Source: Candidatus Latescibacterota bacterium
Lineage (GTDB): Bacteria > Latescibacterota > UBA2968 > UBA8231
DNA length: 18,036 bases
Assembly: GCA_003529325.1 (NCBI GenBank)
Contig: DPVW01000501.1
Coordinates: 7,790-25,825, forward strand
Reading direction: 5' to 3'
This document shows positions 3,853 to 8,656 of the stretch, in pieces. The number at the start of each line of letters is the position of its first letter. Position 1 is the first letter of the stretch. A model generated the notes under the pieces. The model was not told the origin of the DNA. It did no database searches and was given only the letters and a program-made list of their open reading frames with translations. The translations under genes and the position numbers were made by a program.

Positions 3853-3882
3853 TTGACATTTCTAAAGTGCGCCGGCTATACT
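3853..3882 (+). promoter_or_regulatory. Sigma-70-type promoter of the thrS leader
   Basis: A perfect -35 hexamer TTGACA (3853-3858) is followed after 18 bp by TATACT (3877-3882), five of six matches to the -10 consensus. Transcription would begin near 3888-3890, about 65 nt before the leader ORF. It is the best promoter match I found in the window and starts the thrS leader transcript. Confidence 0.8.
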
Positions 3883-3954
3883 TAATCAGATTTACTGCAG
3901 GGCCAGATTCACCGTCCACGAAAAAAATTAAGTGCAGAATCGGAGTCAACTCGG

Positions 3955-4095
3955 ATGTCAATCGACCGGATGGTACCGGTTGCCGGAAAGGGCCAGCTGC
4001 AAAGCGCCCTGTGCCGGATGACGTCCACCCCTACGACCACACCGCTCCCCACGGGTACTCGTGGCGGAAAAGCGATGGTGGAGTTTCCGGGGTAA
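3955..4095 (+). CDS. Thr/Pro-rich leader peptide (46 aa)
   Basis: This short ORF has a GGAG ribosome site at 3942-3945, 9 nt before ATG 3955, and stops at TAA 4093-4095. Residues 23-35 read TSTPTTTPLPTGT: seven Thr (codons at 4021, 4027, 4033, 4036, 4039, 4051 and 4057) and three Pro (4030, 4042 and 4048). Both amino acids match the synthetases encoded downstream, ThrRS and ProRS. In-frame ATGs at 3970 and 4018 are alternative starts that keep the same Thr/Pro run, but their ribosome sites are poorer. Its likely role is to let a translating ribosome report Thr-tRNA and Pro-tRNA supply, as thrL, ilvL and pheM do in Escherichia coli. The peptide itself probably has no function. It is not a domain of any family I know. 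Confidence 0.7.
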   Translation: MSIDRMVPVAGKGQLQSALCRMTSTPTTTPLPTGTRGGKAMVEFPG

Positions 4096-4137
4096 GACCC
4101 GATCTCGAACGAACTTTGACGAGAAGCCCGCTGTCGA
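4071..4137 (+). promoter_or_regulatory. Candidate antiterminator pairing (segments 2 and 3)
   Basis: CGATGGTGG (4073-4081), just downstream of the Thr/Pro codons, can pair over nine contiguous positions, three of them G-U, with CCGCTGTCG (4128-4136) in the 5' arm of the terminator. The same segment can instead pair upstream with codon-region bases: CCAC 4037-4040 with GTGG 4078-4081, and GCT 4044-4046 with AGC 4071-4073. That gives mutually exclusive 1:2, 2:3 and 3:4 pairings. A ribosome stalled at 4033-4059 would free segment 2 and favour readthrough. The pairings were found by eye, without energies. Confidence 0.45.
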
Positions 4138-4163
4138 CTGACATATCGACAGCGGGCTTTTTT
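4124..4163 (+). terminator. Intrinsic terminator upstream of thrS (attenuator)
   Basis: A perfect 14-bp stem (4124-4137 with 4146-4159, GC-rich AAGCCCGCTGTCGA and its complement) with an 8-nt loop is followed by six T residues (4158-4163). It lies between the strong promoter and thrS, 28 nt after the leader ORF stop and 28 nt before the thrS GTG. It would block thrS transcription unless antitermination occurs. Confidence 0.9.
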
Positions 4164-4191
4164 CATGCGATCGGAAATGGGAGTTAGAGAC

Positions 4192-6117
4192 GTGAAAATT
4201 CAGATACGAGAAGGTGAAGTGCTCGATTATGAGGGAGGCGGCAATCTGCGCGACATCCTCATCGAGCATGACAAGAAGCTGTTGCGCGAATTTATCGCAG
4301 CCACAGATGCTGACAAGAGTCACATCGACTTTCACACGGAGTTGGGCGCCGATGCCGAGGTGGCCCTCATGGCCTGGGACGATCCGGAGGCGGCATGGAT
4401 CTATCGTCACAGCATGTCGCACGTGCTGGCGCAGGCGGTACGCCATCTGTTTCCGGCGGCGAAACTGGCGATTGGTCCAGCCATCGACGAGGGATTCTAC
4501 TACGACTTCGACGTGGAAACGCCCTTCACGCCCGAGGACCTGACGGCGATCGAGAAACAGATGAAGCGGGTGGTGAAGCAGAACCACCGCTTCGAGCGCG
4601 AGGAGATCAGCCGGGAGGAGGCGCGCAGTCGTCTGGCCGTCGACCCGTATAAACTTGAGATCCTCGATGATCTGGAGGAGGACCAGACGCTCACGTTCTA
4701 CAAGGACGGGGACTTCGTCGATCTGTGTCGGGGCCCACATATGCTGAGCACTGGCCAGATCAAGCACTACAAGTTGCTCAGCGTTGCCGGCGCCTATTGG
4801 CGTGGAGACGAGAGTCGAAAGATGCTGCAACGCATCTACGGCACGGCCTTCGTCACGCGCGAGGCTCTCGATCACCATATGAAGATGATCGAGGAGGCGA
4901 AGAAGCGGGATCACCGGCGTCTTGGGCAGGAGTTGGAGCTATTCTTCTTTGACGACGAGGTCGGTCCTGGACTACCCCTGTGGCAACCGAAGGGGACGGT
5001 GTTGATCGACGAATTGGAGAAGCTGGCGAAGGAGACGGAGGCCGAGGCCGGTTATCTGCGCGTACGGACGCCGCATATTGCCAAGGATCAGATGTACCAT
5101 AGGAGCGGTCACCTGCCGTATTACAAGGAGTCGATGTATCCGCCCATGGAGCTGGAAGGGGTGACATACTACCTCAAGCCCATGAACTGCCCGCATCACC
5201 ACAAGATCTTCGATTCACTGCCGCGTTCGTATCGTGACATGCCGATTCGTCTGACGGAGTATGGCACATGTTACCGATACGAACAGTCCGGTGAGTTGTT
5301 CGGTCTGATGCGGGTGCGGTCGATGCAGATGAACGATGCCCACATCTACTGTAGGCTCGATCAGTTCGAGGAGGAGTTTCTTGCCGTCTGCCGGATGTAT
5401 CTGAAGTATTTTGAACTGTTCGGCATCGAAAAATACATGATGCGCCTCTCCACACACTCTCAGGAGGGACTGGGCAAGAAGTACGTCGACCAGCCGGAGT
5501 TGTGGAAGAAGACGGAAGACATGGTACGTCGCACACTCGAGAACGGGGGAATTCCTTACGAAGAGGTCGCGGGTGAGGCCGCTTTTTATGGGCCGAAGAT
5601 CGATGTCGAGATCTGGTCCGCCATCGGCCGTGAGTTCAGCATTGCGACGAATCAGGTCGACTTCGCCGTGCCGGAAAAATTCGGTCTGCATTACACGACG
5701 TCGGCGGGTGGCGAGGAAGTGCCACTCTGTATCCACCGAGCCCCGTTGGGCACACACGAGCGTACGATCGGCTTTTTGATTGAACACTTTTCCGGTGCCT
5801 TCCCGCCGTGGTTGGCGCCGGTGCAGGCCGTCGTCATGCCCATCGCCGAGCGGCACCAGCCGTATGGGGCAAAAGTACTCGAGTCCCTGCGTGCCGCTGG
5901 TGTCCGTGCGGAGTTGGCGCAGGATCAGACGCTGAATTATCGCATCCGTGCGGCGCAGAAGCAGAAGGTGCCGTATATGATGATCCTCGGTGATCGTGAG
6001 GTAGAGGACTCCCAGGTCGCGATTCGACTTCGCTCCGGAGAGAATCTGGATCCCATGGGCGTGGATGCGGCACTGGCGATGATCACTGACAAGATCTCCA
6101 CGCGCGCGATCGACTAG
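4192..6117 (+). CDS. thrS: Threonyl-tRNA synthetase
   Basis: ThrRS charges tRNA-Thr in the cytoplasm. The order is an N-terminal TGS-like domain (about 1-60), an editing domain with H-S-M-S-H (about 73-77) and DLCRGPH (Cys about 179), then the class II catalytic core and a C-terminal anticodon-binding domain. The zinc ligands are visible: Cys about 333 in MNCPHH, His about 384 in NDAHIYC and His about 515 in CIHRAP. From memory, E. coli ThrRS uses 334, 385 and 511. Motif 2 is RYEQSGELFGLMRVR. The start is GTG 4192, with GGGAG 8 nt upstream, giving 641 residues, one fewer than the E. coli enzyme. In-frame ATGs at 4165 and 4177 lie against the terminator and lack a clear ribosome site. It is the first structural gene behind the attenuator. 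Confidence 0.96.
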   Translation: MKIQIREGEVLDYEGGGNLRDILIEHDKKLLREFIAATDADKSHIDFHTELGADAEVALMAWDDPEAAWIYRHSMSHVLAQAVRHLFPAAKLAIGPAIDEGFYYDFDVETPFTPEDLTAIEKQMKRVVKQNHRFEREEISREEARSRLAVDPYKLEILDDLEEDQTLTFYKDGDFVDLCRGPHMLSTGQIKHYKLLSVAGAYWRGDESRKMLQRIYGTAFVTREALDHHMKMIEEAKKRDHRRLGQELELFFFDDEVGPGLPLWQPKGTVLIDELEKLAKETEAEAGYLRVRTPHIAKDQMYHRSGHLPYYKESMYPPMELEGVTYYLKPMNCPHHHKIFDSLPRSYRDMPIRLTEYGTCYRYEQSGELFGLMRVRSMQMNDAHIYCRLDQFEEEFLAVCRMYLKYFELFGIEKYMMRLSTHSQEGLGKKYVDQPELWKKTEDMVRRTLENGGIPYEEVAGEAAFYGPKIDVEIWSAIGREFSIATNQVDFAVPEKFGLHYTTSAGGEEVPLCIHRAPLGTHERTIGFLIEHFSGAFPPWLAPVQAVVMPIAERHQPYGAKVLESLRAAGVRAELAQDQTLNYRIRAAQKQKVPYMMILGDREVEDSQVAIRLRSGENLDPMGVDAALAMITDKISTRAID

Positions 6118-6129
6118 GGGATCCGGGGG

Positions 6130-6843
6130 GTGGCAAGACGGCGGCAGCCCCTGGGCAAGCGGGTGCGTCGACAGGCGGAGATCCTGTGGCGCTTTCGGTA
6201 CCACTTTCTGTGTGCCGTGGGGGCACTGTTGTTGTGGAATACGGTGTTGATCAAGCCCTTCAAGGTGTTCGTGGTGATGGTGCACGAAGTGTGCCACGCC
6301 ACGGCAGCCTTGATGACGGGTGGAGAGGTGATCGAGATCCACACCGCCTGGGAAGAGTCGGGGCACACCCTGACTCGCGGTGGCTGGTCGATGGTCATCA
6401 TCTCCGCCGGCTACGTCGGCTCGGCCCTCATCGGGGCGGCCCTGATCGGTGCCGGTATCCTGCCGCAGTTGCAGCGTTTTCTCGTGTTGCTCGTGGGTGC
6501 GGTGACCATGGGCATGACGATGGCTTTCACGCCCGTCGGTGGCCCGGATTTTCTTCTGGGCATCGTCGGTGGCCTCGCCCTGGTCTGTCTGGCCATGTAT
6601 TCCGCCCGTGCCGGGGCCGCTTGTGCCGTCTGGCTGGGGGTGATGTTGTGTCTGTACAGTGTGCACGATTTCCACAGTGACCTGTGGTTATTTGCTGAAT
6701 ACACCGACGCCGGGATTCTCGCCGCCTACTGGGGCCTGCCATGGTTGGCCTACCCCATCGCCACACTGTGGGTGTGGTTGTCTCTGTGGGTGATGTATCG
6801 CGCCATGGGAGTTGTCATGAAACATGAACCGAGTCAAAGTTGA
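6130..6843 (+). CDS. M50B-like integral membrane metallopeptidase
   Basis: This 237-residue polytopic membrane protein starts at GTG 6130 behind a G-rich stretch, 12 nt after thrS. The zinc-binding HExxH motif is HEVCH (residues 52-56), at the end of a hydrophobic segment (about 27-50). It is followed by ATAALMTGGEV and a glycine-rich segment GYVGSALIGAALIG, as in the peptidase M50B-like group. A later SVHDFHSDLW segment may give a further zinc ligand. Several membrane spans follow. M50 proteases cleave within or near the membrane, but the M50B-like branch has no known general substrate. It sits between two tRNA synthetase genes and overlaps neither, so it should be co-transcribed with them. 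No link to translation is known to me. Confidence 0.8.
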   Translation: MARRRQPLGKRVRRQAEILWRFRYHFLCAVGALLLWNTVLIKPFKVFVVMVHEVCHATAALMTGGEVIEIHTAWEESGHTLTRGGWSMVIISAGYVGSALIGAALIGAGILPQLQRFLVLLVGAVTMGMTMAFTPVGGPDFLLGIVGGLALVCLAMYSARAGAACAVWLGVMLCLYSVHDFHSDLWLFAEYTDAGILAAYWGLPWLAYPIATLWVWLSLWVMYRAMGVVMKHEPSQS

Positions 6844-6865: not shown

Positions 6866-8656
6866 ATGCGAATGAGCCAACTCTTCAGCCAGACCCTGCG
6901 TGAAGCGCCAAACGACGCCGAGGCGATCAGCCATGTGTTGTTGCTGCGGGCGGGTTTCATGCGCCAACTGGCGAGTGGCATCTTCAGCTACCTGCCACTG
7001 GCTCAACGTTCCCTGCGCAAGATCGAACAGATCATCCGTTCGGAAATGGACAACATCGGTGGCCAGGAGATTAGCATGCCGGTGGTGCACCCGGCGGACC
7101 TGTGGCGGGAGACGGGGCGTTATTTCGACATCGATGCCGAGATGAGTCGTTTCCAGGATCGCGGTGATCGCGAGATGGTGCTCGCCATGACCCACGAAGA
7201 GGTCGTCGCCGACCTGGCACGCAAGGAGATCAAGTCATACCGCCAACTACCCCAACTCGTCTACCAGTTGCAGACCAAATGGCGAGATGATCCGCGCCCC
7301 CGCTCAGGGTTGATCCGGGTGCGCGAGTTCATCATGAAGGACTCCTACTCCCTCGACGCGACCGAAGAAGGGCTGGAAAAGCAATATCTCGCCCACTACC
7401 AGGCGTACTTCAACATCTTCCATCGTTGTGGCATTCCGACCGTCGCTGTGGCGGCCGACTCCGGCATCATGGGGGGTAAGGTGTCGCACGAGTACATGTA
7501 TCTCACCGGTGTCGGGGAGGACACCATCGTGCGCTGTTCCGGTTGTGATTATGCCGCCAACGGGCAGGTCGCCGCATTTGCCCGGACGGAACCGGCGGCT
7601 GCCGAGGTAGTGGCGATGGAAAAGATTTCGACACCTGATACGAAGACGATAGAGGAGTTGGCAACGCTGCTCGATATCGAGACCCGGCAGACGGCGAAGG
7701 CCGTGTTCTTCATGGGGCGCTATAAAAAAGAGGAGGGCGAGGGGGACGAGGAGCGCATGATCTTTGCCGTCATCCGCGGTGACCTGGAGGTCAACGAGAC
7801 CAAGGTTGCCAACGCCGCCGGCGCCCTCGGTTTGCGTCCGGCACAGGACGACGAAATCAAGGGGATCGGTGCCGTCGCCGGCTACGCCTCACCGGTTGGG
7901 TTGCAGGATGTTCTCGTCATCGCCGATGAGTCGATCACGACGGCGACCAATCTCGTGGCGGGGGCCAACGAGGAAGGCTTCCACACGAAGAATGTCAACT
8001 ATGGGCGTGACTGGGAGGCGACGCATGTCACCGACATCGCGTCGGCACGAGAAGGGGATACCTGTGCCCGCTGCGGCAAAGAGTTGGCACTGACGAGGGG
8101 CGTGGAGGTGGGCAATATTTTTCAGTTGGGGACGCGCTTCACCGATGCACTCGGTGCGAGTTTTCTCGACGAAAATGGCAAGGCACAGTCCATCATCATG
8201 GGGTCCTATGGCATCGGTGTCGGTCGTCTGCTGGCCTGTGTGGCTGAACATTCACATGACGACGGTGGTTGCGTCTGGCCGATCACGATTGCGCCGTATC
8301 AGGTCCACCTGGTTTCTCTGGCCAAGGCCGAGGGGGAAGCGAGGACGGCAGCCGATACACTCTACGACGAGCTGACAGCGGTGGGTGTGGAGGTGCTCTA
8401 CGATGACCGCAAGGAAAATCCGGGGGTCAAGTTCAAAGATGCCGATCTCATCGGCTGCCCGCTACGAGTTACCGTTGGGGACCGAGGTTTGAAGAATGGC
8501 ATCATGGAGCTGAAGGTGCGCACCGACGATGGCAAAGGCGAGGAGGTGCCCTGCGCCGACATCGTCGCGCAGGTCGAAGCAAAATTGGCGCAATTGCGGG
8601 CGGCTGTAGAGCAGACCGTCGTCGAGGTTGTCTACGCGACTCAGGACTCGGCGTAA
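6866..8656 (+). CDS. proS: Prolyl-tRNA synthetase (bacterial type, with editing insertion)
   Basis: ProRS charges tRNA-Pro in the cytoplasm. The 596-residue length fits the long bacterial form, whose insertion domain (roughly residues 230-390) edits mischarged Ala-tRNA-Pro. Recognisable parts are the start MRMSQLFSQTLREAP, motif 1 around ISMPVVHPADLW, motif 2 FIMKDSYSLD preceded by QTKWRDDPRPRSGLIRVREF, the CSGCDYAAN stretch before the insertion, motif 3 around MGSYGIGVGRLLA, and a C-terminal anticodon-binding domain. I chose ATG 6866 because GAAGGAAAGAGG ends 9 nt before it. An upstream in-frame ATG at 6824 would overlap the protease gene. It lies 22 nt after the protease gene and is the third gene of the attenuated operon. 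Its last 16 nt overlap the convergent dehydratase gene. Confidence 0.96.
   Translation: MRMSQLFSQTLREAPNDAEAISHVLLLRAGFMRQLASGIFSYLPLAQRSLRKIEQIIRSEMDNIGGQEISMPVVHPADLWRETGRYFDIDAEMSRFQDRGDREMVLAMTHEEVVADLARKEIKSYRQLPQLVYQLQTKWRDDPRPRSGLIRVREFIMKDSYSLDATEEGLEKQYLAHYQAYFNIFHRCGIPTVAVAADSGIMGGKVSHEYMYLTGVGEDTIVRCSGCDYAANGQVAAFARTEPAAAEVVAMEKISTPDTKTIEELATLLDIETRQTAKAVFFMGRYKKEEGEGDEERMIFAVIRGDLEVNETKVANAAGALGLRPAQDDEIKGIGAVAGYASPVGLQDVLVIADESITTATNLVAGANEEGFHTKNVNYGRDWEATHVTDIASAREGDTCARCGKELALTRGVEVGNIFQLGTRFTDALGASFLDENGKAQSIIMGSYGIGVGRLLACVAEHSHDDGGCVWPITIAPYQVHLVSLAKAEGEARTAADTLYDELTAVGVEVLYDDRKENPGVKFKDADLIGCPLRVTVGDRGLKNGIMELKVRTDDGKGEEVPCADIVAQVEAKLAQLRAAVEQTVVEVVYATQDSA

Follow-up and report, generated by a model that had tools for sequence, protein, structure and literature searches.

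How is the threonyl-tRNA synthetase gene thrS controlled in Candidatus Latescibacterota, and does the DNA ahead of it respond to threonine alone or also to proline? We addressed this question in a stretch of 18,036 nucleotides (the window) from a genome of 5.5 Mb in 502 contigs and 85% complete (G000), for which the original prediction had been a ribosome-mediated attenuator with a leader peptide rich in both Thr and Pro. The following features, all on the plus strand, are referred to throughout.

3853..3882, + strand: sigma-70-like promoter, TTGACA-18-TATACT, 11 of 12 consensus matches
3942..3945, + strand: GGAG, predicted ribosome-binding site of the leader ORF, read directly
3955..4095, + strand: leader peptide ORF of 46 codons, MSIDRMVPVAGKGQLQSALCRMTSTPTTTPLPTGTRGGKAMVEFPG, read directly
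4021..4059, + strand: Thr-codon cluster, 7 Thr and 3 Pro over 13 codons, from direct reading and shuffles
4073..4081, + strand: region 2, putative antiterminator 5′ strand CGATGGTGG, 9/9 bases able to pair with 4128-4136
4124..4137, + strand: region 3, terminator 5′ arm, whose core CCGCTGTCG (4128-4136) can also pair with region 2
4146..4163, + strand: region 4, terminator 3′ arm and T run
4192..6117, + strand: thrS, threonyl-tRNA synthetase, GTG start (Pfam PF00587, PF03129, PF07973)
6130..6843, + strand: M50B-like peptidase gene between thrS and proS, probably in the same operon (PF13398)
6866..8656, + strand: proS, prolyl-tRNA synthetase, start ATG at 6866 or 6824, probably co-transcribed (PF00587, PF04073, PF03129)

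The TTGACA (3853-3858) and TATACT (3877-3882) boxes are separated by an 18-nt spacer, and a short translatable ORF, running from the ATG at 3955 to the TAA stop codon at 4093-4095, is present between this promoter and thrS. In the encoded peptide, Thr occupies residues 23, 25, 27, 28, 29, 33, and 35, and Pro residues 26, 30, and 32. Between the leader ORF and thrS there is an intrinsic terminator, in which 4124-4137 pairs with 4146-4159 to form a 14-pair stem with an 8-nt loop, and the T run spans 4158-4163. The promoter, the GGAG, the 46-codon ORF whose residues 23 to 35 include 7 Thr and 3 Pro, and the 14-bp terminator with six T ahead of thrS had all been named in the original prediction, and direct reading confirmed each of them. 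A simple terminator scan missed the hairpin because the full stem has just four T after it; a separately written scan found it. By eye, GGAG(G) and ATGTC occur likewise in loci L004, L005, L006, L036, and L039.

The family sample comprised 25 genomes, and the DNA before thrS was readable in 21 (the contig of G002 starts inside thrS, and thrS was not found in G012, G013, and G019). Loci L001, L052, and L053 were dropped as duplicates of L002, L003, and L004. We called a leader ORF Thr-rich if a stretch of 14 residues held at least four Thr and a terminator lay between the ORF and thrS. Such an ORF with an intrinsic terminator is present in 15 of the 21 readable genomes: G000, G001, G003, G005, G007, G009, G010, G014, G016, G018, and G020-G024. 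Of the pattern that the original prediction proposed to look for upstream of thrS in relatives, the Thr-codon ORF and the terminator are thus conserved in 15/21, and outside the Thr cluster the peptide is variable. The leaders range from 4 to 11 Thr per 14 residues and have both SD-led and apparently leaderless starts, with losses among the relatives. The G007 leader, MAFPTTTTTTRTTAAILSGAMVDY, contains eight Thr, and the g7 leaders have runs of up to ten consecutive Thr. By one ORF count, at least six Thr are found in 11/21 family loci versus 0/105 thrS loci examined outside the family, where the maximum of five is reached in two; these 105 are part of the matches found, 17 of them belong to the same class, and two have less than 150 nt of upstream DNA.

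Each of the 15 leader ORFs has a promoter-like site ahead of it, matching the consensus at 8 to 11 of 12 positions; five of the g7 sites reach only 8. In G003, which belongs to the genus of G000, a segment of about 130 nt that contains codons 1 to 21 is missing, and MTSTPTTT, region 2, and the terminator are retained; its ATG lies 6 nt past the -10 box, so that the promoter is nearly fused to MTSTPTTT (L014). The ATG lies 7 nt past a -10-like box in seven g7 genomes (L007-L013). Translation of the leader peptide is probably leaderless in G003 and in these seven g7 genomes, judging from this spacing.

The six remaining readable loci fall into two kinds. The terminator and region 2 are present without a Thr cluster in 3/21 (G004, G006, and G008; loci L006, L039, and L032), where no 14-residue ORF window upstream of the terminator holds more than 3, 3, and 2 Thr, respectively. 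The leader is absent, by eye, in another 3/21 (G017, G011, and G015; loci L033, L034, and L035). There, a promoter-like site lies directly 5′ of a terminator-like thrS hairpin, and the leader ORF and the antiterminator are gone; since the site abuts the hairpin, the transcript would start with it. Overall, our scan found a hairpin with a T run in 20/21 family thrS loci, missing that of L033.

Is the Thr cluster more than a chance feature of the composition? The 260 nt that precede the terminator were dinucleotide-shuffled 2000 times, and residues were counted in 14-residue ORF windows. For the window leader, at least seven Thr occurred in 1/2000 shuffles, and the Thr cluster therefore exceeds chance; at least three Pro occurred in 1172/2000, so Pro in this leader is not shown to be above chance. 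The test covered 14 leaders, omitting L008, L009, L010, and L013, which are near copies of L007, and L033-L035, which have no leader. Seven gave Thr counts matched in no more than 5/2000 shuffles and three more were below 5%, while L005 (102/2000), L006, L039, and L032 missed that level. Codon positions point the same way. In five close g7 leaders, chosen as the closest set with L011 and L012 left out, the first, second, and third codon positions vary in 0, 0, and 5 columns over the 11 codons of the Thr run, versus 4, 4, and 8 in the other 26 codons, and the length of the run differs by one whole codon. In the two g7 leaders left out, the Thr run is interrupted by Ser, Pro, or Ala. Shuffles, codon positions, and locus counts together identify a cluster of codons for the operon's own amino acid that is kept by selection, and on this comparative reading it is the translated Thr run that selection appears to keep in the thrS leader.

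These results bear on a rival explanation, in which the ORF is a plain upstream ORF aiding re-initiation, or the hairpin merely ends the upstream oxidoreductase gene. A role for leader genes in enhancing translation of the gene that follows has been proposed, according to the available text of PMC4833913. Against this explanation, the Thr codons are preserved through synonymous change, a promoter-like site with 11/12 matches stands between the upstream gene and the hairpin, and the hairpin and region 2 accompany thrS in 18 loci that differ in their upstream DNA. We consider this explanation very improbable.

An attenuator also needs an alternative pairing that excludes the terminator, and we looked for it in the RNA from a mid-run ribosome stall to the terminator loop. 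In the predicted minimum-energy fold, 6 to 9 of the 9 region 2 bases pair with the terminator arm in 15/15 leaders. Region 2, as CGAYGG, AGACGG, or GGATAGCG, is found in 18/18 loci that keep the terminator and the preceding DNA, with a search pattern that was written after seeing the folding results. It starts between 23 nt before and 8 nt after the leader stop codon in 17/17 loci with a named ORF, and this placement is constant despite differing leader frames and peptides. Being so close to the stop codon, region 2 would have a terminating ribosome on or beside it. Sequence reading and comparison of the loci thus show the ORF, Thr codons that are retained from genus to genus, the terminator, and an alternative pairing whose position stays constant.

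The statistics of the pairing itself are more modest. Over the 18 loci, 139/162 cells of the alignment between region 2 and the terminator arm pair in register, and sliding by -3, -2, -1, +1, +2, and +3 gave 89, 53, 66, 34, 49, and 121 of 162; this control is not clean, with the +3 register (121) nearly equal to the true register (139). When the whole region was shuffled, 5 to 356 of 1000 shuffles had as good a duplex energy, depending on the leader. Fisher combination gave 5e-5 over ten leaders and 2e-4 over seven, for related sequences that are not independent; the set of seven leaves out, among others, L014 (318/1000) and L004 (114/1000), both of which are included in the ten. In a motif-centred window the duplex energy beats shuffles at 5% in 10/13 loci, a test that is biased because the motif was chosen first, and in 5/13 loci other leader windows pair equally strongly (6/170 up to 40/182). 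A crude partition-function fold of the window left region 3 unpaired with values of 0.31 with the ribosome stalled, 0.43 with it at the stop codon, and 0.23 without a ribosome, and as a model it barely separates the three states. A protector (1:2) hairpin over the Thr codons has a mean pairing probability above 0.5 in 5/11 leaders. The predicted pairing of regions 2 and 3 is thus well placed and, by these calculations, thermodynamically only moderately special.

Taken together, the Thr leaders in 15/21 relatives, the synonymous changes within the Thr run, and the antiterminator motif support well the central claim of the original prediction, that a Thr leader peptide mediates attenuation by the ribosome. 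Very likely, thrS, and probably the whole thrS-M50B-proS operon, is under a transcription attenuator tuned to charged tRNA-Thr. Transcription would start near 3889, with a ribosome trailing the polymerase through the leader ORF. With ample Thr-tRNA-Thr, the ribosome would run on to the stop codon at 4093, and from there its footprint would overlap region 2 (4073-4081); the masking of region 2 would let the terminator (4124-4159) form, and transcription would stop ahead of thrS. With scarce Thr-tRNA-Thr, the ribosome would be stalled on the Thr codons at 4021-4059, leaving region 2 free to pair with the terminator 5′ arm, and polymerase would read through into thrS. From this arrangement of elements we infer that the ribosome stalls, that it masks region 2 on reaching the stop codon, that starvation evokes the response, and that proS is co-transcribed.

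Control of thrS is known to work by other means, through binding of ThrRS to its own mRNA in E. coli and through a T-box binding tRNA-Thr elsewhere. The E. coli self-regulation is mentioned in the available text of PMC2965389. No T-box appears in the window at the gathering threshold or among the seven matches with E up to 10, nor in five thrS loci of relatives. From the T run to the thrS start there are just 28 nt, which by eye differ in sequence between genera, and this leaves little operator room before thrS. We therefore regard control by a T-box or by ThrRS as extremely improbable. Known RNA families as a whole gave no match at gathering in the window or in the seven relatives' loci scanned; the Rfam Thr_leader covariance model (RF00506) scored 22.5 bits in the window, below its gathering score of 55 (E 0.065).

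A further question is whether one leader could sense both Thr-tRNA and Pro-tRNA and set thrS and proS together. Since this would be a special case of the Thr attenuator, the confidence placed in the two overlaps. The thrS, M50B-like, and proS genes are separated by gaps short enough for one operon, which they probably form. proS may share the thrS transcript, and would then follow the Thr supply. From its first to its last Thr, the run contains Pro codons in 5/5 leaders of genera g1 and g3 (3, 2, 2, 1, and 2), all five of these genomes have proS no more than 0.9 kb from thrS, and the Pro codons are placed where a stall would work. However, Pro counts never exceed those of shuffles at 5% in the 14 leaders (the lowest is 181/2000). 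Outside g1 and g3 there is no Pro inside the Thr run in 9/10 leaders, the exception being one Pro in L011; counted over windows of 14 residues, L011 and L012 have 2 to 3 Pro. Three of the nine leaders with a Pro-free run nevertheless have proS within 0.9 kb of thrS (G020, G023, and G024). Conversely, G018, with proS 1.66 Mb away, has a leader like its neighbours', and G007, with proS on another contig, keeps the Thr leader.

Shuffles, the Pro counts of relatives, and proS linkage all argue against dual sensing, and this part of the original prediction is without support; we judge it unlikely. It is equally doubtful that the g1 and g3 leaders are two-input sensors whose interleaved Thr and Pro codons couple the thrS-proS operon to a shortage of either tRNA, and what positive support there is for Pro sensing in these groups consists in the presence of the Pro codons. 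The comparison across the family in this way corrects the Thr-plus-Pro idea.

Of the 25 family genomes, 12 have proS at most 0.9 kb from thrS and 4 have it at 1.7-3.9 kb; in 4 it is distant or sits on a different contig, and 5 gave no distance. The proS of G016 is split into two pieces in different frames (L153 and L155, covering query residues 1-166 and 167-589), which is a frameshift or an assembly error. As to the origin of thrS, its nearest homologs outside the family among the matches listed are from Bipolaricaulota, with 67% identity, versus at most 47% identity for thrS of the same class as the family. Horizontal transfer of thrS, on the Bipolaricaulota or the family side, is therefore probable. 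Inheritance of the leader with thrS from this nearest outside relative was considered and rejected, as by eye the two Bipolaricaulota thrS genes have a short upstream region and no Thr leader; the upstream region of one, L055, holds 100 N.

Among the closest known systems is the enterobacterial thrL (RF00506), in which a Thr-codon-rich leader ORF is followed by an intrinsic terminator with alternative pairing. The window leader resembles it in all three respects. In contrast, thrL controls thrABC, whereas the window leader would control a synthetase gene and has no Ile codons in its cluster. Ribosome-mediated attenuators of the pheST and trp type are known from Proteobacteria. Attenuation of amino-acid and aminoacyl-tRNA operons was reportedly the subject of a comparative study by Lopatovskaya in 2010, which may include thrS cases.

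In Streptomyces lividans TK24, according to the available text of PMC8079986, a thrL of 18 residues with two Thr and a leaderless start was proposed before thrS, without a clear Rho-independent terminator, and leaders were also predicted before alaS, leuS, and trpS. The S. lividans thrL, as described there, shares with the family leader the proposed control of thrS, and its leaderless start recalls the apparent arrangement in G003 and the seven g7 genomes. The family differs from it in the number of Thr, which reaches 11, in its clean terminator, and in the conservation of an antiterminator motif. The pheST- and trp-type leaders and the S. lividans alaS, leuS, and trpS leaders, the latter as far as that text describes them, likewise set a synthetase or biosynthetic gene by its own amino acid, although amino acid, gene, and lineage differ; the likeness to the thrS leader is functional, with no sequence similarity claimed. 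His leaders precede hisS paralogues of bacilli, and the authors of that work state that, to their knowledge and ermC aside, earlier demonstrations of leader-peptide systems were confined to Proteobacteria and Actinobacteria (available text of PMC2965389).

The original remark that no described case of this pairing was known therefore needs qualifying. Leader-peptide control of thrS as such was already proposed in S. lividans, in the text cited above, and the family case is the clearer one; a joint Thr/Pro leader was not found in a literature search limited to open-licence articles. The Thr leader of the family is far clearer than this single published thrS case that we found, insofar as the available text describes the latter. 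With it, attenuation of a tRNA synthetase by a leader peptide would reach an uncultured lineage outside the usual groups, and the natural variants of the attenuator in the family form a ready set for testing which of its parts matter.

Other genes were searched for amino-acid-rich leaders in seven family genomes. No such leader with a terminator was found upstream of hom, the LeuA-dimer genes, or pheS, or of the PF00133 synthetases (ileS-, valS-, metG-, and leuS-like, typed by N-terminus and length) in the seven genomes, upstream of hisG in 6/7 genomes, or in about 4.5 to 5 kb before ilvC, in which stretches ilvB was not identified; the fragment loci L182 and L189 have little or no upstream DNA. 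Hairpins with T runs and no matching leader precede hom in G024, pheS in G018 and G024, and a LeuA-dimer gene in G005, and those upstream of pheS seem to end the upstream gene. The exception is trpE. A short Trp-leader ORF with a WW motif and 2-4 Trp, followed by a terminator, precedes trpE in 7/7 family genomes searched (loci L209, L207, L206, L208, L216, L217, and L218 in G001, G000, G005, G004, G007, G024, and G018, respectively), as in the G001 leader MTHNRSDNPRRWWWRFWSYETGQRGVHP; L207 and L209 gave no Rfam match. Judging from these upstream regions, leader-peptide attenuators, including that of trpE, appear to be in use in this lineage, which counts in favour of one before thrS as well. 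The trpE genes are themselves of two types among the four proteins checked, with G004 and G001 passing TIGR00564 (NCBIfam trpE, stand-alone) and G007 and G024 passing TIGR01815 (fused TrpE-clade3).
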